Of a stretch of 64,000 bases of DNA, positions 7,779 through 45,156 are shown one piece after another; within the stretch, counting starts at the first letter, position 1; each line of letters begins with the position of its first letter. The position numbers and the translations under genes were made by a program. This stretch comes from Owenia fusiformis. Taxonomy: Eukaryota > Annelida > Polychaeta > Sabellida > Oweniidae. The notes under the pieces were generated by a model. It did not search any database. It saw nothing but the letters and a program-made list of their open reading frames with translations, and had not been told where the DNA came from. The stretch lies in NCBI GenBank assembly GCA_903813345.2, contig CAIIXF020000011.1, positions 15,795,754 through 15,859,753 of the forward strand. Direction: 5' to 3'.

Positions 7779-10295
7779 TAACTTAACAGTGATAAAATTT
7801 TAATAGAATATAATTTAAACCTTAACATTTAAAAATAGATCTATGGTTTGGTTTCAACTCAATTTAAAATTGGAAAGAAACTTCCAGTTAGCCTGTTTAC
7901 ATTTTTATGTTAAAATACACAAGAGACGACTGTCAGGCTTCTCACGTTGACATCGCCCCTTTTCCCCAGTAGTGCAGGCATGTTGCTGTGTACTGGGGAC
8001 ATTCTACATTAAATTAATAAGTTGAGTGATGTGTGTAGAAATAAATCTATATTAAAAATAAAATGCTTTAGTTGCAATTTTTATGTTATACAGTAATACA
8101 GTAATGGTTTTCGGTATAACGTGCATCGGTATAACAGGTTTCGGTACAATGCGCATCGGTATATTGGTTTTCAGCATAAGGCCATCAGTATAATGAGGTG
8201 ATCCCGATGTTTTAACACCTTCAACTTTTTAACAACTTATTTTTATATAAATATGAATGCAGCATACCCTTCTCAAGACAATAATCGATGCATTTTTGAA
8301 TGGTCATAGCTCCTGGACGATAACCATACAGTTCACCAAGCCCATTCAAATCACGTGGTATTTCATCTTTGAAGCAACCCAAATAAACAGCTGAAGATTG
8401 AAATATACACTAATGGTATCAATCTTAAACTCATATTATCAAACTATATTATCATTAAATTAATTTTTCATTTTGTATAAAAAGTAAAAACAAAAATACT
8501 GTAACAAAATTGCTAAAAAAAGTTAATTAGGTCAAATGATGAATTGATCAAAACAGTTTGGCAGAATTTAATATCGAATTATGGAAATAATTTAGAAATA
8601 AACTTTTTTTGTTGATTGCAAATAAGGTTTTAATCTACTTGCTGTCAGAAAAGCTAATAGTAGCCATTAATAATACTGTACATGTATTATGTAAAAAAAA
8701 CATCAAAATTTGAATTAAAAAGATCGATTAATTCTGCATTTTAGCAACCAAAATATATACCTCCGCAATCTGCTTTGATGAGTGGTATCATCACCAAGAC
8801 GATGACCAAACATGTCAATGTAGTTGTCATCATATCTAGTTTTCTTACGTTATTCTTCTGTATGGTTCTCTAACCCCAGGTTGCACGGATAAATAACTCC
8901 TCATTTATATATTTGTTTTTGTTTCAGATTAAATTCATGACTAGAATGATTATTAGAATGAATTTCATTCATAAAATTTCATTAATAGCTATTACCCCAG
9001 TTTTTAGAATTCTTTTTAATAGGATGAACTAATAAAGGCAATAAAAATAGGACATAAAATGATGGTGAATAGATGTTTTGAAACATTTGCAGAGAAAAAT
9101 TGTTCTATGGAAGTTTTAAATGGTATCATAAAAATATGAAATTGTTGAATTATTATATTTTGCACTCAATAATTGCATCGGGTCTTTGTTGGTAATATTG
9201 TTTTGTCATTATGTAGAACAACATATAAATGTTTTTTTTATGTTTTGTAGCATTCATAGAAAAAAAGCAATTGGTTCTCATAAAGTTTTTAATGATATCA
9301 TCAAAATATGATACTTTGTACTCAATTATTACATTTGCAGTTGTATTACTATTTTTTCACAGTATTTAATTATGCTGGCAATTTTGATTTTGATCCAAAT
9401 ATAGTATACTGCATTCTGAAGAAAATGATGTATGTCATGTATGTTTTAGCTCCAAATATCTTACTATTTTACTAAGTAACAGACTAAGTAAACACTGTTA
9501 CCTACGGATTGTTTTATTAGAAAAGTGTACCTTCCTAAATGTTTTTCCACAAGTCCAAACACACAGAAGTTCGAGAAATTAATGAATTCTCAAAATAAAA
9601 TATAACCAGAAAGTAACAATGAACAGAGCAGTTTTATAATTAGCCGAAATGTGATTTCCTGAATGATGATAAGCAGGAGTACAGTATATACTGTATAGTT
9701 TCTCATAAAAGATTAGCCTTGTTGAATTATTTCCTGTTGTTCCCCGAGAGAATAAAAATGTAACGTCTCTTGAATTCATTAACAAATATGACCCTGTGAC
9801 GCAATATTTGGAAGTTAAGGTTGCTAGTAATGAAATCTTTATACATACCAAAATAATTGAAAGAAAACAGTTTTCCTCTGCGGAATCCTGAGATCTGATA
9901 TGAAATTGATCTAAACAAAATTTACCAATGTTGACAAAACATTAGCAGTCGAATTCCAGATTGTTTGTTAACTATTTAGAGTAAGCTTGTGCATGCATTG
10001 GCGAATGCAACTTTCAGCTGTCAGCTACTGGATTGACATACTACTATTTTATGGGCAACTCATTTAAATATGAATAGAACCTGGCACTATTTCATTCATT
10101 GCAATGCAGATTATTGCATCTGTAGTGTTGACTGCAATTGGCTAATTTCACTCGTCCCAACCTGGTTTCCAGGATGGTCTGTCTCCATCTGACCAACTTG
10201 GGACAAAATGAATGAACACCCAGAAAAAAATTAAAAGATTTTTTATTTTCTTTCTGGACATTTATTTATAGACTAGATATGCTACATGAAAGTCT
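7779..10295. other. AT-rich, no gene supported
   Basis: A small degenerate minisatellite with GGTATAA and GCATCGGTAT words lies at 8105-8190. ORFs at 9579-9851 and 9727-9918 overlap in different frames and have no splice support. Nothing else was supported. Confidence 0.5.
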
Positions 10296-22251: not shown

Positions 22252-23030
22252 TAATTAAGTTACCTTCAATATTAAGTAAGTTACCTTTGATACAAATTAA
22301 GTTACCTTCAATACAAGTCAATAAAGATAAAGTTACTTTCAATATAAATTCAGTTACCTTCAATATAAACCAAGTTACCTTCAATATAAATCAAGTTACC
22401 TTCAATACATATTAAGTTACCTTCAATACAAATTAAATAACCTTTAATATAAATTAAGTTACCTTCAATGTAAATCAAGTTACATTCAATACAAATCAAG
22501 TAACCTTCAATATAAATCAATTTACCTTCAATACAAATCAAGTTACCTTCAATACAAATAAATTTACTTTCAATATAAATTAAGTTACCTTCAATATAAA
22601 TCAAGTTACCTTCAATACAAATCAAGTTACCTTCAATACATATTATGTTACCTTCAATACAAATAAATTTACCTTCAATATAAATCAAGTTACCTTCAAT
22701 ACAAATCAAGTAACCTTCAATACATATTATGTTACCTTCAATACAAATAAATTTACTTTCAATATAAATCAAGTTACCTTCAATATAAATCAAGTAACCT
22801 TCAATACAAATTAAGTTACCTTCAATACAAATTAAGTTACCTTCAATACAAATTAAATTACCATCAATATAAATAAAGCTACCTTCAATATAAATAAAGC
22901 TACCTTCAATATAAATTAAGTTACTTTCAATATAAATTAAGTTACCTTCAATACAAATTACACTTCCTTCAATATATATATATAGAGTTAACCTTCAATA
23001 CATATTAAGTTACCTTCAATACAAATTCAC
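22252..23030. repeat. 21-bp satellite, about 37 units
   Basis: Head-to-tail units of AAGTTACCTTCAATATAAATC and variants (TATAAATC, ACAAATCA, ACATATTA). Because 21 is a multiple of three, the minus strand stays open for 147 codons (22350-22793), giving a heptapeptide repeat of the type IYIEGNL. No start context, splice site or flanking exon supports translation, so I treat the ORF as a by-product. Confidence 0.95.
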
Positions 23031-27305: not shown

Positions 27306-27621
27306 CAAGGTTCTCACTAGGCTTTTAGAATCAAATGTCTTTTACCCTCTTGCTCCAGAGTCTTATAGCATTTCCCGAGTCTAAAAGGTTTAATTTTTCA
27401 TTTTTGTCACATTATTTGTGGTAAAACACTTGAGAAAATACATAAATTGGATGCAAACAAGGAATAGGAAGTATATTGTGACTAAAATAGGAAGATAATC
27501 TTAAGTACATGTTGTATGAAAAGTGTACTAATAGGATATCTCTGATCTCACATAGGGGAGGAGTAGTCTCGTGATACCACAAAAAAATCTGGGGTCTAAA
27601 AATTTCCTGGTGAGAACCCTG
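27306..27621. mobile_element. hAT-like MITE, TIR CARGGTTCTCAC
   Basis: The left end CAAGGTTCTCACTAGGC and reversed right end CAGGGTTCTCACCAGG are inverted. GACAT flanks both sides (27301-27305 and 27622-27626). It is 316 bp, related to 3308-3534 by its termini and the adjacent CTTTTAGA word. The ORF at 27412-27672 crosses its right boundary and is not a gene. Confidence 0.82.
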
Positions 27622-34062: not shown

Positions 34063-34309
34063 TGCATATTGAATGTTGTATAAAGAGGGCTTTGGGTATG
34101 TAATACATCAAACAAAATAAATGTGAATTGTGTTGGATGCAAACATTTTTTGAAATCTCTGATTTTTGAAAAACTGATTTTGAAGAAATTCCTGAGTAAA
34201 CTTAATGCAAAATGCTGTTTTCATATGTGACTGAAACATTATTTTTTGTGGTTAAAATAAAAGGATGAATATTTTCTATTTTTCTTTAATCATCAAACTT
34301 TACCTAATT

Positions 34310-34486
34310 AGACTCCAGATTGAAAATCTGGAGTCTATTGTTTTTGCCTGTTTTCTTATTAGACTCCAGATGAAAATCTGGAGTCTATTGCTTTCGTCAG
34401 TTTTCTTTATTATTAGACTCCAGATTTCATCTGGAGTCTATTGCTTTTGCCAGTTTTCTTATTATTATTATTATTATTATTATTAT
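34310..34486 (+). repeat. Three stacked 5' heads plus TTA microsatellite
   Basis: Three successive modules each begin AGACTCCAGAT, fold into a short hairpin with ATCTGGAGTCT (34310-34336, 34361-34386, 34415-34439), and continue ATTG.TTTYGYCWGTTTTCTT(T)ATTATT. The last leads into (ATT)n at 34460-34486. The hairpin arm AGACTCCAGATTT is the exact inverse of AAATCTGGAGTCT found near the 3' end of every body unit downstream. I read these as 5' termini of Helitron-like elements whose bodies were displaced rightward by later insertions. Confidence 0.7.
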
Positions 34487-36524
34487 TTTTCTTTCTTTCC
34501 GCGTTTTCTCAGCAACTAGAGGGACTTCCTAAAATCTGCTAACATAGTCAACTAGGTAATGAGTTCTAGTTTCTGGGAAATTAGGTCAAATGTTTATCTA
34601 GGTCAAAGGTCAAGAACTAGGTCAAATCGTCTCTTTTTGCTATTTCACAAGTTTTCTCAGTCGTCCTTTGGTATTTTCGCTTCGGGTTTTTTTCATCATG
34701 TTCCTTAGAAAAAAAGCTAATTCCGTTAGGCAAACCGTTTTTTGATTACTCTTACCGATTTTGAGATATGGCGTCCGAAAAGTAGGTCAGAACATAAAAA
34801 ATTCTCCAAATTCAACGTGTGAATTATCAAATAAGTGTAGAATTATCTCAGGAATCCGAATCTGCAAACAAAATTTTGATCCGACTTCCGGTTCGGAAGT
34901 TATAGCGTTTTGAAATCTCAAAAATCGCTAAATTTGGTGCCCATGTTAAGTCAATGGGAAAAAAGGCTTTTTCGAAGTGTAAAATACAAGATATAGACTG
35001 AGTTCAGCTTAACATATTGAATGCCTATAAAAGAAGGGGACCTCAAAAGCTACATAGCTTCGAAATTTGGACACCAAAATGCCTAGGTCAAAATCTAGGT
35101 CAAATTCATAGTTTTTCCTTATTTTTGCGATTCTGGCACTACACTTTTAGGATTTGCTTCAAAATTTTGTATACAGGTAGCAAAGAGTGTGCTAATAGTG
35201 AGAGCCTTTTGCCGTCAGAAAGTATTTTGACCCACTTTTGAGATATGGTGTCCGTAAAGTAGGTCAAAATAAAAATTTCTCATAATTTAACTTATGAGTT
35301 ATGAATTAAGGGTAGAATTTTCTCAGGAATCTGAATCTGCAAACCAAATTTCAATCCGACTTTTCGTTGGGAAGTTATGGCGTTTTGAAAGCTCAAAAAT
35401 CGCTAATTTTGGTGCCCCATGTTATGTCAATGAGAAAAAAGATTTTTTTGAAGTGTAAAATACCAGATAAAGACTGAGTACAGCTTAAGATTCTGAAAGT
35501 CTATAAAAGAAGGGGACCTCGAAGGCTATCTAGCTTTAAAATTTGGACACCAAAATCCCTAGGTCAAAATCTAGGTCAAATACATAGTTTTTCCTTATTT
35601 TTGCGATTCTGGCACTACACTTTTAGGATTTGCTTCAAAATTTTGTATACAGGTAGCAAAGAGTGTGCTAATAGTGAGAGCCTTTTGCCGTCAGAAAGTA
35701 TTTTGACCCACTTTTGAGATATGGTGTCCGTAAAGTAGGTCAAAATAAAAATTTCTCATAATTTAACTTATGAGTTATGAATTAAGGGTAGAATTTTCTA
35801 AGGAATCCGAATCTGCAAACCAAATTTCAATCCGACTTTTCGTTGGGAAGTTATGCTAATTTTGGTGCCCCATGTTATGTCAATGAGAAAAAAGATTTTT
35901 TTGAAGTCTAAAATACCAGATATAGACTGAGTACAGCTTAACATTCTGAAAGCCTTTTAAGGAAGGGGACCTCGAAGGCTATCTAGCTTTAAAATTTGGA
36001 CACCAAAATGCCAAGGTCAAAATCTAGGGCAAATTCATAATTTTCCTTATTTTTGCGATTCTGACATTACACTTTAATGATTTGCTTCGAAATTTTGTAT
36101 ACAGGTAGCAAAGAGTGTGCTTATAGTGATAGCCTTTTGCCGTCAGAAAGTATTTTGACCCACTTTTGAGATATGGTGTCCAAAAAGTAGGTCAAAATAA
36201 AAAAATCTCCAAATTTAATGTATGAGTTATGAATTAAGGGTAGAATTTTCTCAGGAGTCCGAATCTTTAAACCAAAATACAATCTTACTTCTGGTTAGAT
36301 AGTTATAGCGGTTTGAAGTCTCGAAAAGTCGATATGATGATATCCCCATGTTAAGCCAATGGAGTCGAAGATAAAAAATGGAGAGTTGTCTAAATGTCTA
36401 AATTCTAGCTGACTCGATCAGCTTATTCTGGATGACTCAGCTTACAAGTATTCTGGATGACTCAGCTTAAAAAAAGAATTAAATCTGGAGTCTTAAATTG
36501 AACTTGTTCAATTTACATGTCTAG
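34487..36524 (+). mobile_element. Helitron-like body unit 1 (three ~475-bp monomers)
   Basis: Starts TTTTCTTTCTTTCCGCG, then a unique leader (TTTTCTCAGCAACTAGAGGG) and three tandem monomers of about 450-480 bp. Each monomer is marked by GAAGGGGACCTC, GGTCAAAATCTAGG and TTTTGCCGTCAG. It ends AAATCTGGAGTCT, a hairpin AAATTGAAC/GTTCAATTT at 36495-36514, 6 nt, then CTAG at 36521-36524, followed by TTATTATT. A 3' hairpin just before CTRR is the Helitron hallmark. No Rep/helicase ORF is present, so it is non-autonomous. Confidence 0.75.
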
Positions 36525-38738
36525 TTATTATTATTATTATTATTTTTCTTTCTTTCCGCGTTTTCTCAGCAACTAGAGGGACTTCCTAAAATCTGCTAAC
36601 ATAGTCAACTAGGTAATGAGTTCTAGTTTCTGGGAAATTAGGTCAAATGTTTATCTAGGTCAAAGGTCAAGAACTAGGTCAAATCGTCTCTTTTTGCTAT
36701 TTCACAAGTTTTCTCAGTCGTCCTTTGGTATTTTCGCTCTGGGTTTTTTTCATCATGTTCCTTAGAAAAAAAGCTAATTCCGTAAGGCAAACCGTTTTTT
36801 GATTACTCTTACCGATTTTGAGATATGGCGTCCGAAAAGTAGGTCAGAACATAAAAAATTCTCCAAATTCAACGTGTGAATTATCAAATAAGTGTAGAAT
36901 TATCTCAGGAATCCGAATCTGCAAACAAAATTTTGATCCGACTTCCGGTTCGGAAGTTATAGCGTTTTGAAATCTCAAAAATCGCTAAATTTGGTGCCCA
37001 TGTTAAGTCAATGGGAAAAAAGGCTTTTTCGAAGTGTAAAATACAAGATATAGACTGAGTTCAGCTTAACATATTCAATGCCTATAAAAGAAGGGGACCT
37101 CAAAAGCTACATAGCTTCGAAATTTGGACACCAGAATGCCTAGGTCAAAATCTAGGTCAAATTCATAGTTTTTCCTTATTTTTGCGATTCTGGCACTACA
37201 CTTTTAGGATTTGCTTCAAAATTTTGTATACAGGTAGCAAAGAGTGTGCTAATAGTGAGAGCCTTTTGCCGTCAGAAAGTATTTTGACCCACTTTTGAGA
37301 TATGGTGTCCGTAAAGTAGGTCAAAATAAAAATTTCTCATAATTTAACTTATGAGTTATGAATTAAGGGTAGAATTTTCTCAGGAATCCGAATCTGCAAA
37401 CCAAATTTCAATCCGACTTTTCGTTGGGAAGTTATGGCGTTTTGAAAGCTCAAAAATCGCTAATTTTGGTGCCCCATGTTATGTCAATGAGAAAAAAGAT
37501 TTTTTTGAAGAGTAAAATACCAGATAAAGACTGAGTACAGCTTAAGATTCTGAAAGTCTATAAAAGAAGGGGACCTCGAAGGCTAACTAGCTTTAAAATT
37601 TGGACACCAAAATCCCTAGGTCAAAATCTAGGTCAAATACATAGTTTTTCCTTATTTTTGCGATTCTGGCACTACACTTTTAGGATTTGCTTCGAAATTT
37701 TGTATACAGGTAGCAAAGAGTGAGCTTATAGTGTTAGCCTTTTGCCGTCAGAGAGTATTTTGACCCACTTTTGAGATATGGTGTCCGAAAAGTAGGTCAA
37801 AATAAAAAATTCTCCAAATTTTACGTATGAGTTATGAATTAAGAATAGAATTTTCTCAGGAATCCGAATCTGCAAACCAAATGTCGATCCGACTTCCAGT
37901 TCCAAAGTTATGGCGTGTCCTAAAAGTAGGTCAAAATAAAAATTCGCCAAATTTAACGTATGAGTTATGAATAAGGGGTAGAATTTTGTCAGGAATCCGA
38001 ATCTTTAAATCAAATTTCGATCCGACTTCCGGTTTGAAAGTTATGGCGTTTTGAAATTTCGAGAAAAATCGATCTGATGTTATCCTGATAGAAAGTCAAG
38101 GAAAAAAGATTTTTTTGAAGTGTAAAATACGAGATATAGATTGAGTACAGCTTAAGATAATGAATTCCTATAAAAGAAGGGGACCTCAAAAGCTACCTAG
38201 TTTCAATATTTGGACACCAAAATGCCAAGGTCAAAATCTAGGGCAAATTCATAATTTTCCTTATTTTTGCGATTCTGACATTACACTTTAATGATTTGCT
38301 TCGAAATTTTGTATACAGGTAGCAAAGAGTGTGCTTATAGTGATAGCCTTTTGCCGTCAGAAAGTATTTTGACCCACTTTTGAGATATGGTGTCCAAAAA
38401 GTAGGTCAAAATAAAAAAATCTCCAAATTTAATGTATGAGTTATGAATTAAGGGTAGAATTTTCTCAGGAGTCCGTATCTTTAATCCAAAATACAATCTA
38501 ACTTCTGGTTAGATAGTTATAGCGGTTTGAAGTCTCGAAAAGTCGATATGATGATATCCCCATGTTAAGCCAATGGAGTCGAAGATAAAAAATGGAGAGT
38601 TGTCTAAATGTCTAAATTCTAGCTGACTCGATCAGCTTATTCTGGATGACTCAGCTTACAAGTATTCTGGATGACTCAGCTTAAAAAAAGAATTAAATCT
38701 GGAGTCTTAAATTGAACTTGTTCAATTTACATGTCTAG
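36525..38738 (+). mobile_element. Helitron-like body unit 2 (three monomers)
   Basis: Nearly identical to unit 1 over the first kilobase (34487-35500 against 36535-37560) and over the last 500 bp, but with an extra partial monomer of about 130 bp near 37900. It ends with the same AAATCTGGAGTCT, a hairpin at 38709-38728 and CTAG at 38735-38738. The close match to unit 1 implies a recent event, either a second insertion of the same source or a tandem duplication. Confidence 0.75.
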
Positions 38739-41581
38739 TTATTATTATTCTTTCAGAATCTTCCTCCTTCCCAGATTTCTCACCAACTAAAAGAATTTAC
38801 TTTAAGCTGCTTACATGATCAACTAGGGGCAGTACCTGGGATGATGGGAAATTAGGTCAAATTTTTATCTAGGTCAAGGGTCAAGAACTAGGTCAAATCA
38901 AGGTCAAATTAACATTCTGTCAATTATCTTCGTTGTTGTTTGTCGTAACTACTTCATCTTAGTTTCTACATGTAGCTTAGAAAAAAACAAATCGAGAGTG
39001 TGCCATCCGTTTTTTGATTACTCTTAGCGATTTTGAGATATGGCGTCCTGAAAGTAGGTCAAAACCAAAAAGTTCTCCAAATTTAACATATGAGCTATGA
39101 AATAAGGGTAGAATTTTCTCAGGAATCCGAATCTGCAAACCAAATTTTGATCCGACTTCCCGTTCGGAAGTTATGGCGTTTTGAAAGCTCAAAAATCGCT
39201 AAATTTGGTGCCCATGTTAAGTCAATGGGAAAAAAGATTTTTTGAAGTGAAAAATACGAAATATAGACTGAGTTCAGCTAAATATAATGAAAGCTTTTAA
39301 AAGAAGGGGACCTCATAAGCCATCTAGCTTCAAAATTTGGACACCAAAATGCCTAGGTCAAAATCTAGGTCAAATTGAAAGTTTTTCCTTATTTTTGCGA
39401 TTCTGACACAACAGATTAATTATATTCTTCGAAATTTTGTATACATGTAGCTAAGAGTCTGCTAATAGTGTTAGCCTTTTGCCGTCAGAAAGTATTTTGC
39501 CCCATTTTTGAGATATGGTGTCCGAAAAGTAGGTCAAAATAAAAAATTCTCAAAATTTGACGTTTGAGTTATGAATTAAGTATAGAATTTTCTCAGGAAT
39601 CCGAATCTGCAAACCAAATTTCGATCCGACTTCCGGTTTGGAAGTTATGGCGTGTCCGAAAAGTAGGTCAAAATAAAAAGTTTCCAAATTTAATGTATGA
39701 GCTATGAATTAAGGATAGGATTTTCTCTGGAATCCAAATCTGCAAACCAAATTTCGATCCGACTTCCGGTTCGGAAGTTATGGCGTTTTGAAAGCTCAAA
39801 AATCGCTAAATTTGGTGCCCCATGTTATGTCAATGGGAAAAAATATTTTTTGAAGTGTAAAATACGAGATATAGACTAAGTATGGCTAAACATAATGGAA
39901 GCCCATAAAAGAAGGGGACCTCAAAACCTTCTAATTTTGAAAATTTGGACAACAAAATGCCTAGGTCAAAATCTAGGTCAAATTCAAAGCTTTTCCTTAT
40001 TTTTGCGATTCTGACACTACACTTTAATTATATTCTTCGAAATTGTGTATACATGTAGCCAAGAGTGTGCTTATAGTGTTAGCCTTTTGCCGTCAAAAAG
40101 TATTTTGACCCACTTTTGAGATATGGTGTCCCAAAAGTAGGTCAAAATAAAAAAATCTACAAATGTAACGTATGAGTTATGAATAAGGGGTAGAATTTTA
40201 TCAGGAATCCGAATCTGCAAATCAAATTTTGATTCGACCTCCTGTTCGGAACTTATGGTGTTTTGAAAGCTCAAAAATCGCTAAATTTGCTGCCCCATGT
40301 TATGTCAATGGGAAAAAAGATTTTTTTGAAGTGTAAAATACGAGATATAGACTGAGTACAGCTTAATATAATGAAAGCCTATTAAAGAAGGGGACCTCGA
40401 AGGCTACTTAGCTCCAAAATTTGGACACCAAAATGCCTAGGTCAAAATCTAGGTCAAATTTATAGTTTTCCCTTATTTTTGCGATTCTGACACTATATTT
40501 AAATGATTTGCTTTAAAATTTTGTATACAGGTAGCAAAGAGTATGCTAATAGTGTTAGCGTTTTGCCGTCAGAAAGTATTTTGACCCACTTTTGAGATAT
40601 GGTGTCCGAAAAGTAGGCCAAAGTTAAAAAATTTCCAAATTTAACGTATGAGTTATGAATTAAGGGTAGAATTTTCTCAGAAATCTAGATCTGCAAACCA
40701 AATTTCAATCCGACTACTTGTTCTGAAGTTATGGCGTTTTGAAATCTCAAAAATCGCTAAATTTGGTGCCCCATGTTAAATCAATGGGACCGAATAATTT
40801 TTTGAAGTATAAAAATACAAGATATAGAATGAGTACAGCTAAACATAATGAAAGCCCATAGAAGAAGGGGACCTCAAAAGCTACTTTCCTTCAAAGTTTG
40901 GACACCAAAATACCTAGTTCAAAATCTAGGACAAATTCATAGTTTTTTTTATTTTGCGATTCTGACACTACACTTCAATGATATTCTCCGAAATTTTGTA
41001 AACTTGTAGCAAAGAGTGTGCTCATAATGTTAACATTTTGCCGTCAATAAGTTTTTTGACCCACTTTTGAGATATGGTGTCCGAAATGTAGGTCAAAATA
41101 AAAAAGTTCTCCAATTTTAAATTATGAGTTATGAATTAGGTGTAGAATTTCCTCAGGAATCTGGATCTGAAATTAAATTGCAATCAGACCCCCGGTTTAG
41201 ATTCTACGCCATTTTGAAGTTTGAAATTCGCACTTGCCAGTATTCACGATGCAGATTGATCAAATATACTTTCAAAAATTCCTGCATACCCTACTTTACC
41301 TCTCTACCTACTCAGCTACTTATTTGACTACTTACTCAATTACTTAATTAGTTATTACTTCCTTAGCAACTTACTCAGCTACTAACTCGGGTACTTACTC
41401 AGCTACTTACTCAGCTACCTACTCAGCTTTTTACTCAGTTACTTACTCAGCTACTTCCTCAACTACTACTAAGGTACTTACTCAGCTAATTACTCAGTTA
41501 CTTACTCAGCTCTTTACTGATCTATCTAGGTCAAATAAATCTGGAGTCTTAAATTGAACTTGTTCAATTTCACAAATCTAG
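38739..41581 (+). mobile_element. Helitron-like body unit 3 (four monomers, diverged)
   Basis: Begins TTATTATTATTCTTTCAGAATC. The leader differs from units 1-2 (CACCAACTAAAAGAATTTAC) and there are four monomers. Before the 3' end lies a degenerate TACTTACTCAGCTAC tandem stretch (about 41285-41520). It ends AAATCTGGAGTCT (41537-41549), the hairpin at 41551-41570 and CTAG at 41578-41581. The spacer is CACAAAT rather than ACATGT, yet hairpin and CTAG are intact. Confidence 0.72.
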
Positions 41582-43172
41582 TTATTCTTTCTTTCTTCCT
41601 CCTAACAGATTTTCTCTCCAACTATAACATCTTACTTAATCCAACCTACATGGTTGACTAGGGAATGTATCTGGCTTTCTGGGAAATTAGGTCAAATTTT
41701 TATCTAGGTCAAAGGTCAAGAACTAGGTCAAATCTTACATTTTCAACATTCTTCATCATATCTTCGTCAATATTCTTCGTAACTCCTTCATCTTTTTTCC
41801 ATCGTGTAGCTTAGAAAAAGGCGAATCAAAGATATGACATCAGAATTTTGATTACTCTTACCGATTTTGAGATATGGCGTCCGGAAAGTAGGTCAGAACA
41901 GAAAGTTCTCCAAATTCAACATGTGAGTTATGAAATAAGTGTAGAATGATCTCAGGAATCTGAATCTGCAAACCAAATTTGGATCGGACTTCCGGTTCGG
42001 AAGTTATAGCGTTTTGAAAGCTCAAAATTCGCTAAATTTGGTGCCTATGTTAAGTCAATGGGAAAAAAGACTTTTTCGAAGTGTAAAATACAAGATATAG
42101 ACTGAGTACAGCTTAACATAATGAATGCTTATAAAAGAAGGGGACCTCAAAAGCTACATAGCTTCAAAATTTGGACACCAAAATGCCTAGGTCAAAATCT
42201 ACGTCAAATTCATAGTTTTTCCTTATTTTTACGATTCTGACAATACACTTTAATAATTTACTTCAAAATTTTGTATACAGGTAGCGAAGAGTGTGCTAAT
42301 AGTGTTAGCCTTTTGCCGTCAGAAAGTATTTTGACCCACTTTTGAGATATGGTGTCCGAAAACTAGGTCAAAATAAAAAATTCTCCAAATTTAACATATG
42401 AGCTATGAATTAAGAGTAGAATTTTCCCAGGAATCCGAATCTGTAAACCAAATTTCAATCCGACTTTCGGTTCGGAAGTTATGGCGTTTTGAAAGCTCAA
42501 AAATCGCTAAATTTGGTGCCCCATGTTATGTCAATGAGAAAAAAGATTTTTTTGAAGTGTAAAATACCAGATATAAACTGAGTACAGCTTAACATTCTGA
42601 AAGCCTATAAAAGAATGGGACCTCGAAGGCTATCTAGCTTTAAAATTTGGACACCAAAATGCCTAGGTCAAAATCTAGGTCAAATTCATAGTTTTTCCTT
42701 ATTTTTGCGATTCTGACATTACACTTTAATGATTTGCTTCGAAATTTTGTATACAGGTAGCAAAGAGTGTGCTTATAGTGTTAGCCTTCTGCTGTCAGAA
42801 AGTATTTTGACCCACTTTTGAGATATGGTGTCTGAAAAGTAGGTCAAAATAAAAAGTTCTCCAAATTTAACGTATGAGTTATGAATTAAGGGAAGAATTT
42901 CCTCAGGAATCAGAATCTTTAAACTAAATTTCGATCCAACTTCTGATTAGATAGTTATAGCGGTTTGAAGTCTCGAAAAGTCGATATGATGATATCCCCA
43001 TGTTAAGCCAATGGAGTCGAAGATAACATTCTTAAGAGTTGTCTAAATGTCTATATTCTAGCTGACTCAGCTTATTCTGAATGACTCAGCTTACAAGTAT
43101 TTGGATGACTCAGCTTAAAAAAAGTCTGAAATCTGGAGTCTTAAATTGAACTTGTTCAATTTACATGTCTAG
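41582..43172 (+). mobile_element. Helitron-like body unit 4 (two monomers)
   Basis: Begins TTATTCTTTCTTTCTTCC, has two monomers, the ACTCAGCTTA motif and a 3' end with AAATCTGGAGTCT (43129-43141), hairpin 43143-43162, ACATGT and CTAG (43169-43172). The sequence following (TTATATATCC) is the right flank of the whole array. Monomer-borne ORFs across the array (for example 35017-35241, 40071-40274) are short, conserved only as part of the repeat, and not genes. Confidence 0.72.
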
Positions 43173-43240
43173 TTATATATCCATTTGTAACCTCATGTTA
43201 AAGGGCCCTTGTAATCCGAGAACATTCTTGAAAAATGAAA

Positions 43241-43473: not shown

Positions 43474-44315
43474 TATTAGAACATAATCCTATCAAAATAG
43501 GTACTTAAGCTATATAATCATTTTCTATTTTCGAAAAATGCTCATACCGTAATTGATCAAAATTGGTACTATTGCTATATTCATTGTTTATTTCCCAAAA
43601 ATGCTCACGTGGAACCTCGTCAATTTGTGGAAGAGGCATTAATAATGACCGGGGGTTTCATTAGCAGCAGGCAACAGGCAATTTTCACCGGTTGTTTTCA
43701 CAAAATCGCACTGTTGTTTTTAGGCACTTTCCATGTCAAATTTATGCTTTCCATTAATTTTGCCTTTTGTTTCCATTTATTTATCCTGTAATGAGAAATT
43801 CTAGTGAAACCCCTGAATGCTAAGCATTTTATGTATCTAAACCCCAGACATAGATAATCAATTCACTAATGGTAATGTTTACATTCCTATTGTCCTATTA
43901 ATAGTCAAGAGTCTTCTTATTTGCAACATATCGTGACAACCCCAAAAAAAGTATCAAGTTTTGGTAAATTAAATTGACAGAAAAAATTGAAAGATGCTAA
44001 AGTAATGGATGTAGAAGAATGGGCTTGAAATACATACTTTAAAATTATGAAGAAATCATTGGGAAATGGGTACTTCATTTGCATCAAAGGAAACAAGAAA
44101 ATCTGACATGGGACATGGTGTTTTTTTAGGTTTTGGTCTTCGATGATCAATGAGAATGGTTAAACCAAACATTGTTATTGAGTTAGTTCCTTGCCAATTT
44201 TCTCATTTGGTGATCAGCCAGGCAGAATTGAACATCGAAAGTAAACGCTGAATCCCTTAGTAGCATATAACTATGAGCTATTCCATCATTTTACAGCATT
44301 TAATCTTAAATTTAC
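43474..44315. other. No gene supported
   Basis: ORFs at 43609-43791 and 43917-44150 lack splice sites and recognisable motifs. Confidence 0.45.
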
Positions 44316-44564
44316 TAGCATTCTTATATTTTCAATTTTCAATTTACTACCATTCTTATATTTTCAATCTTCAATTTACTACCATTCTTATATTTTCAAT
44401 CTTCAATTTACTACCATTCTTATATTTTTAATCTTCACTTTACTACCATTCTTATATTTTCAATCTTTAATTTACTACCATTCTCATATTTTCAATCTTC
44501 AATTTACTACCATTTTCATATTTTCAATCTTCAATTTACTACCAGTCTCATATTTTCAATCTTG

Positions 44565-44884
44565 AAACTGAAACTTTTAAACATCTGAATTCTAGAAATA
44601 AATTTAAGTCAGATTTGAAAAAGTATTATCTGGACAAGTATTAAATTAATCTGTATAACATTTAGCTATATGTGCTTTTATATATGTATATTTCTTTCTC
44701 TTCTATCACTTTTCTTCTAACTTTCTATCTTAAAAAACAGTTTTATATCTTGTCATCTTGATTAATACAATTATGTAATATAATCATATGTAACTATATA
44801 CACCCGCATGGGTGTCAGTTGCCTGTACATTGAAAATCGATATAATTGACAAATAAACAACTATGCAAACTGTAAAAAAAAAAA
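44565..44884 (+). mobile_element. 5'-truncated non-LTR retrotransposon tail
   Basis: It starts with a C-terminal-like coding end (FKHLNSRNKFKSDLKKYYLD then KY and stop at about 44642), a pattern common at the end of jockey/CR1-type ORF2 proteins. It then has about 230 bp of 3' UTR and an A-tract near 44872-44882. It interrupts the 32-bp repeat. Class-level assignment only; the fragment is too short to place in a family. Confidence 0.65.
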
Positions 44885-45156
44885 TTAACTACCATTCTTA
44901 TATTTTCAATCTTCAATTTACTATCATTCTTATATTTTCAATCTTCAATTTACTACCATTTTCATATTTTCAATCTTCAATTTACTACCAGTCTCATATT
45001 TTCAATCTTCAATTTACTACCATTTTTATATTTTCAATCTTCAATTTATTATCATTCTTATATTTTCAATCTTCAATTTACTACCATTCTCATATTTTCA
45101 ATCTTCAATTTACTACCATTCTCATATTTTCAATCTTCAATTCACTACCATTCTTA

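Follow-up and report, generated by a model that had tools for sequence, protein, structure and literature searches.

Apparent repeated nesting of a Helentron-associated element within its own copies in the annelid Owenia fusiformis

Non-autonomous Helentrons, known as HINE or DINE-1 elements, are described, in the portion of Thomas et al. (2014, PMC4067079) available to us, as carrying palindromic subterminal inverted repeats (subTIRs) that adjoin the 5' end and lie a few tens of nucleotides from the 3' end, together with a 3' palindrome, insertion at TT and, in some HINE copies, microsatellites or tandem repeats. The Cg_HINE elements of the Pacific oyster, so far as the accessible sections of PMC7492417 go, have a left module of subTIR, complementary repeat and microsatellite, a tandem core, and a right module of subTIR and palindrome, and occupy T-rich targets without duplication. 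These features recur in an element family of the annelid Owenia fusiformis, represented by an array at positions 34310-43172 of a 64,000-nucleotide stretch of its genome (G000:C11:15795754-15859753, hereafter the window). The element is very probably a non-autonomous rolling-circle transposon of the HINE (Helentron-associated) type that has nested repeatedly within its own copies.

Each copy opens with a 5' head, in which a palindromic subTIR hairpin, AGACTCCAGAT...ATCTGGAGTCT, is followed by about 20 nt and then by an (ATT)n tract; the body contains core repeats of ~476 bp, and 61 of the 64 stretches measured are 1.0-2.8 kb long; the 3' end, or tail, consists of a subTIR inverted relative to that of the 5' end, a 9-bp hairpin, 6-7 nt and CTAG. 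Set against the definition of HINEs, the subterminal inverted repeats (at least 11 bp) are represented by AGACTCCAGAT in the head and ATCTGGAGTCT 5' of the 3' hairpin; the short palindrome near the 3' end by AAATTGAAC/GTTCAATTT, which stops 10-11 nt before the CTAG end; the combination of microsatellite and central tandem repeats by the (ATT)n tract 3' of the head and the cores; and the insertion at TT without target-site duplication by the flanks, which end in ATT on the left and start with TT on the right in all 19 arrays rated closed, a status judged by eye once head and tail counts were visible. An opposite-oriented cluster, L014, has AGTT at its left. Of the canonical Helitron features, the 5' TC is replaced by (TT)AGACTCC, and the 3' hairpin followed by CTRR is present as hairpin and CTAG, with insertion between A and T at a site, A-TT, within whose TT the exact point cannot be fixed. 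A first-pass annotation of the window had recognised the hairpin-CTRR end as a Helitron property and proposed a Helentron-type affinity; the CTAG after the hairpin bears out the one, and the subTIRs, 3' palindrome, TT insertion, microsatellite and cores bear out the other. Pearl elements are comparable in the same respects as Cg_HINE elements. Differences from the described families lie in the 3' end, where HINE/DINE-1 elements have a run of T (PMC4067079, as available) and this family has CTAG before TT, and in the repeats, which are Cg170-type cores with mostly 4-nt microsatellites in the oyster (PMC7492417, likewise in part) and ~476-bp cores with (ATT)n here.

Within the window, three consecutive heads stand at the left and are followed by four units of body and tail:
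34307..34309 (+): outer left target ATT, matching the TT of the site at 43173-43174, in the ATT/AGACTCC...CTAG/TT pattern of closed arrays
34310..34360 (+): head 1, outermost, a palindromic 5' subTIR hairpin and a post-head stretch with TTTTTGCCTGTTTTC; likely partner tail 4
34361..34414 (+): head 2; likely partner tail 3 (CACAAATCTAG type)
34415..34458 (+): head 3, innermost, contiguous with body 1 and tail 1
34459..34487 (+): unbroken TTA tract on the 3' side of head 3, where new copies presumably land
34488..36480 (+): body 1, with four core motifs and no long open frame seen
36481..36524 (+): tail 1, comprising 3' subTIR, hairpin, ACATGT and CTAG
36525..38694 (+): TTA tract and body 2, without a head of its own in the array
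38695..38738 (+): tail 2
38739..41536 (+): TTA tract and body 3, of the CACAAAT subfamily
41537..41581 (+): tail 3
41582..43128 (+): body 4, assigned to the outermost element, its distance to the nearest sampled relative being the greatest among the four
43129..43172 (+): tail 4, outermost

The head starts (34310, 34361, 34415) and tail ends (36524, 38738, 41581, 43172) given by the first-pass annotation are correct, each tail consisting of AAATCTGGAGTCT, the 9-bp hairpin AAATTGAAC-TT-GTTCAATTT, 6 or 7 nt and CTAG. With up to two mismatches, AAATCTGGAGTCT has 11 matches in the window (2.43 expected; 11 reached by 0 of 100 shuffles), a count that takes in both head arms and one unrelated match at 27585, and the 20-nt 3' hairpin, with up to three mismatches, has eight, or four places on both strands (0.10 expected; 0 of 100 shuffles). 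Units 1 and 2 are indeed near-identical, their bodies sharing 97.8% identity across 1,388 bp. The TTA repeats reported after every CTAG fail at the fourth, where TTATATATCC comes next, and the perfect hairpin of the innermost head, offered as support for nesting, does not discriminate, since heads 1 and 2 form perfect hairpins as well. The tandem core units of ~476 bp within the bodies are a correction to that account.

The family extends far beyond this locus. The tail 23-mer, with up to three mismatches, occurs 3,074 times (1,646 + 1,428) in 498 Mb, against 2 + 2 for a reversed-pattern control, and the head 25-mer 2,691 times (1,403 + 1,288), against none, the copies being dispersed across many contigs. 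For closer study, clusters on C1, and two on C2, were picked by eye, and hence non-randomly, among the first 100 places of the head and tail listings (perfect matches only), requiring a head and a tail within ~10 kb or less and excluding bigger clusters; 26 clusters (L005-L030) and the tail-only L031 were fetched, and five were extended rightward. The 26 arrays analysed are the window and these clusters without L014 and L031, and carry 67 heads (H) and 65 tails (T). Seven of them are single HT copies with the same two ends, so that the solitary copies with other termini which, according to the first-pass annotation, would speak against nesting are not seen; the others take the form HHTT, HHHTTT, HHHHTTTT or mixtures such as HHHTHTT. 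The element is not a plain satellite, the alternative named in the first-pass annotation, because its copies, some of them single, occur on many contigs, and empty sites exist for a number of loci.

Head and tail subtypes within the arrays appear to pair in last-in, first-out order, and it is chiefly this bracket order, which the first-pass annotation had not proposed as a test, that supports its nested-insertion reading of the window array. Contiguous pairs give the subtype associations: head loops TTGAAAA or TTTCA occur with tail spacers ACATGT or ATATGT in 12 of 13 pairs, the TGAAAA loop with longer T spacing is accompanied by CACAAAT in all 6 of its pairs, and CC spacers accompany the other loop types in all 8 of theirs. 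When heads and tails are paired as brackets, mutual information over 60 pairs is 1.660, a value that includes the physically joined innermost pairs, expected to match under any model, and that none of 5,000 within-array shuffles reaches (mean 1.088, maximum 1.509), whereas co-linear pairing yields 0.809, which 4,926 of 5,000 shuffles equal or exceed; un-extended arrays show the same pattern. Once joined pairs are removed, gapped scoring of 15 simple stacks, with subfamily classes defined after the un-extended-array result was visible, prefers mirror order in four (L009, L013, L024, L012x), co-linear order in none and ties in 11, a result reached by 140 of 5,000 head-order shuffles and by 0 of 5,000 swaps of tail lists among arrays. 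Ungapped scoring without joined pairs is matched by across-array shuffles in 2 of 20,000 cases, and the likeliest tail is present in 12 of 24 scorable pairs (5.0 expected). Heads and tails within one array thus belong together, and those few arrays able to discriminate favour mirror order for the outer pairs. Four tail forecasts were recorded before the right extensions were read, and that for L019, a D-type tail, was matched exactly.

Head and tail numbers tell a similar story. They rise together across the 26 arrays (rho 0.90) and are equal in 16, which 0 of 20,000 shuffles reach (mean 5.7); among closed arrays they are equal in 15 of 19 (mean 5.5; 0 of 20,000), or 15 of 20 if L011 is added, and the four unequal ones among the 19 divide into two with a surplus head and two with a surplus tail. 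Insertion is shown for some loci by empty sites, which the first-pass annotation had suggested looking for. Outer flanks joined with one TT were matched to the genome, 40 of 6,254 candidates being scored from a list filled by two repeat families, and among these, full-length matches were found for 3 of the 19 closed arrays, the other 16 not counting as negatives: L009 (HHHTTT) has one at 100%, plus a second, partial match at 82% spanning the joint, L006 (HT) has 11 at 99%, and L012x (HHHTTTT) has 28 at 94-98%. These were judged from coordinates rather than from inspected alignments, query and genome lengths being equal except in three L012x rows (271 vs 267). Because the flanks of L009 and L012x match uninterrupted paralogous sites, a multi-layer array can occupy a single insertion site, as expected of nesting.

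A number of results weigh on the other side. Mirror scores are negative in L018, L021, L022x and L025 under gapped scoring, and ungapped stack scoring without joined pairs performs no better than shuffling within arrays (its score is reached by 3,650 of 20,000). Only one forecast of the four was exact: for L012 the class was right and the spacer wrong, for L016 one of two predicted tails was seen, and for L022 the forecast failed, a different type of tail coming next, even if the array did close as HHTT. Head and tail numbers differ by one in 10 of 26 arrays, and the overall agreement comes partly from single copies, because closed arrays with more than one layer are equal in 8 of 12, a figure reached by 334 of 20,000 shuffles. 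A second empty-site search, in which 40 of 3,316 candidates were scored, found none among them for the window, L008 or L024. The prediction that the leftmost body is youngest agrees with the window, where bodies 1-4 lie progressively farther from their nearest relatives in other arrays (0.005, 0.006, 0.009, 0.031), and is not borne out over the 18 multi-body arrays taken raw, where outer and inner bodies are the older in 9 cases each. Ranked within subfamily, outer bodies are older by 13 to 5 (p 0.027); since this ranking was added after the raw result, sequence distances lend weak support to outer bodies being older than inner.

The search for an autonomous partner belongs on the same side of the balance. 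The Rep domain (PF14214) has 58 matches in the genome, 23 of them within open frames of at least 3,000 codons, and no Rep element with this family's ends was found at the 7 of 58 loci checked. Six of these were read on both sides (C1:21115714, C11:29204960, C5:30807401, C1:4667175, C12:19514795, C6:27117644) and C2:32581642 on the 3' side only, the flanks covering ~2.3 kb on the 5' side, which at C5:30807401 was still open frame, and, for loci with a visible stop codon, ~4-6.5 kb beyond it. The only hits, two loose tail matches (L041) and two loose 9-mers (L054, L055) near Rep loci, were judged by eye to be chance. In favour of the HINE reading, Rep, PIF1 helicase and endonuclease domains do occur in open frames of the genome: Pfam searches of five pieces from different loci returned DUF6570 and Rep (C337), PIF1 helicase (C11, C1:4667175) and the Exo_endo_phos endonuclease (C1:21115714, C5), domains which, taken across these loci, suggest the Helentron layout. 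Many long-frame Rep matches lie on small contigs, e.g. C13 and C515, and downstream of the C1 copy (C1:21118500-21126500, L041) a satellite-like repeat with a unit of ~180 bp starts. The open frames listed for the longest bodies (L027, 5.8 kb; L029, 3.9 kb; L020x, 3.4 kb) held nothing Rep-like by eye, no family search having been made.

Other routes to such arrays can be imagined, of which the most familiar is tandem duplication, whereby unequal exchange or slippage at TTA tracts and 50-bp head units would add bodies and heads without transposition. Several observations favour it: bodies 3 and 4 of L012x are near-identical (0.000, 0.003) against distances to other arrays of 0.072 and 0.023-0.026, a clear local duplication; for L024.1/.2 and window body 1, too, the closest relative in the 5' part lies within the same array; L029 has two same-type heads and one tail; and the arrays unbalanced by one are of the kind it would produce. 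As the main source of the arrays it is nonetheless very improbable, since most bodies have their nearest relatives elsewhere. Among the 56 bodies with a same-array comparator (64 bodies were sampled of some 3,000), the nearest relative lies in another array for 48 in the 5' part (same array 6, ties 2) and for 53 in the 3' part (same array 2, tie 1). Subfamilies mix within arrays at about chance level, adjacent bodies sharing a class 13 times out of 38 where shuffles average 10.2 (3,746 of 20,000 at or above), which shows no clear enrichment; head and tail subtypes match within arrays even when joined pairs are removed (across-array shuffles reach the ungapped score in 2 of 20,000 cases and the gapped score in 0 of 5,000); and empty sites attest insertion. 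The body relationships in this sample thus argue against a satellite and against local hopping being the principal source.

Composite transposition, in which nested arrays, or a head stack with its first tail, would move as units so that some stacks copy older ones, has been published as a proposal for the multiple 5' termini of the FoHelis of Fusarium (PMC5148889, in the part available). The surplus heads of L029 (HHT) and L016x (HHHHTTT) fit this path, and fit the gain of a head unit equally well; as surplus heads occur in just two of 19 closed arrays, and surplus tails in two, it hardly seems a likely general account. Rolling-circle read-through, or multimeric circles inserted in a single event, finds a parallel in the tandem truncated Helitrons of plants, in which numerous 5' ends accompany a single 3' end (PMC12628747, in the part available). 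Such events would be expected to yield one subfamily with a head between units, whereas the arrays mix subfamilies and stack their heads mostly outside, making this origin extremely unlikely.

Repeated nesting has to accommodate the imbalance of the window itself, three heads against four bodies, which the first-pass annotation had named as its weak point and which stands. The post-head type of head 1 (TTTTTGCCTG) recurs in the first head of L025 and, decayed, in L021; the last bodies of these two arrays begin like body 4 and are its nearest relatives. Head 2 shows the long T spacing of the type that pairs with CACAAAT, as in tail 3. Body 2 is the headless one, because head 3 joins body 1, head 2 fits tail 3 and head 1 fits body 4. 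It may have lost its head, one 50-bp unit out of a stack of similar heads, or it may be a local duplicate of body 1. The 5' part of body 1 is nearest to body 2 (0.007, against 0.010 to L009.3) and its 3' part to L009.3 (0.000, against 0.009 to body 2), a comparison that is compatible with local duplication of body 1 without establishing it.

The arrays suggest a simple mechanism. Elements insert at ATT sites, often ATT/ATT, without target-site duplication, presumably by means of a Rep/helicase/endonuclease protein supplied in trans. A resident (ATT)n tract offers several such sites in the same orientation, and new copies appear to land there repeatedly, probably one insertion per layer, each landing splitting the resident head from the resident body so that heads accumulate at the left and tails at the right, with partners recoverable by bracket matching; an imbalance of one would then arise when a 50-bp head unit is gained or lost, or when a body is duplicated locally. 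Rejoined target tracts have at least three ATT units in 32 of 39 nests versus 7 of 19 outer sites, and at least 29 of 100 perfect heads lie within 125 bp downstream of another. Given 39,697 overlapping (ATT)3 and 5,517 (ATT)4 positions on both strands of the genome, own tracts would be hit ~12-33 times as often as other (ATT)3+ tracts, a rough estimate that scales a biased sample to the genome, assumes unchanged tract lengths and serves as an indication only. In 25 of 34 nests the insertion point falls on the side of the tract nearer the head (equal in 6, opposite in 3).

The excess in own tracts could stem from a preference that goes beyond sequence, or from selection against copies inserted elsewhere. 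A speculative and rather doubtful possibility is homing, in which Rep or a partner would bind head hairpins and steer the incoming strand to the adjoining ATT units, so that the element would carry its own landing pad and host genes would be spared; this would explain both the excess and the position of insertion points toward the head end. Bracketed arrays provide a built-in relative clock, from which the order of subfamily activity could be read without molecular dating, and they make rolling-circle self-targeting testable while showing how a dispersed transposon can mimic a satellite. The microsatellites borne by HINEs may be landing places, not by-products.

L011 (four heads, three tails) and L027 (rated closed) have a common right flank, TATATCTTGGTTACCGCCATATTTGGCGAGC after the TTA tract, with a short inverted repeat that is perhaps the end of another family. 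Family heads directly follow CTAGTTATT-type ends to the left of position 801 in L007 and of position 868 in L019, ends in which the tail pattern found no AAATCTGGAGTCT arm; these may be decayed tails or belong to a second family with a like 3' end. Right of the L016x array (7967-8782, right extension L037) lies a tandem repeat with three frames open simultaneously. In the window, a 32-bp unit forms two arrays (44302-44563 and 44883-45156) with ~320 bp between them, and ~33 copies of a 21-bp unit occupy 22253-23027, with higher-order periods of 42, 63 and 105 bp.

Nested Helitrons are already known, and what looks new here is the regularity of self-nesting. Nesting in an element's own microsatellite was not found described in the available portion of PMC4067079, nor nested head stacks in that of PMC7492417, and no report of regular nesting of this kind was found in the literature searched, which left most subscription papers uncovered. 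Helitrons of Fusarium (PMC5148889) and maize (PMC3288121) show self-insertion and multiple 5' or 3' ends, with insertion near other Helitrons in maize; so far as the accessible parts of these papers go, they offer single examples or proposed paths, whereas Owenia has many arrays, paired subtypes and one defined site. Dimers that form when an element prefers certain insertion sites (McGurk and Barbash, cited in the available part of a review, PMC12628747) are alike in that site preference puts copies in or beside themselves, and differ from the arrays described here, in which up to four heads are stacked and the array can be closed and balanced, inside the element's own microsatellite.

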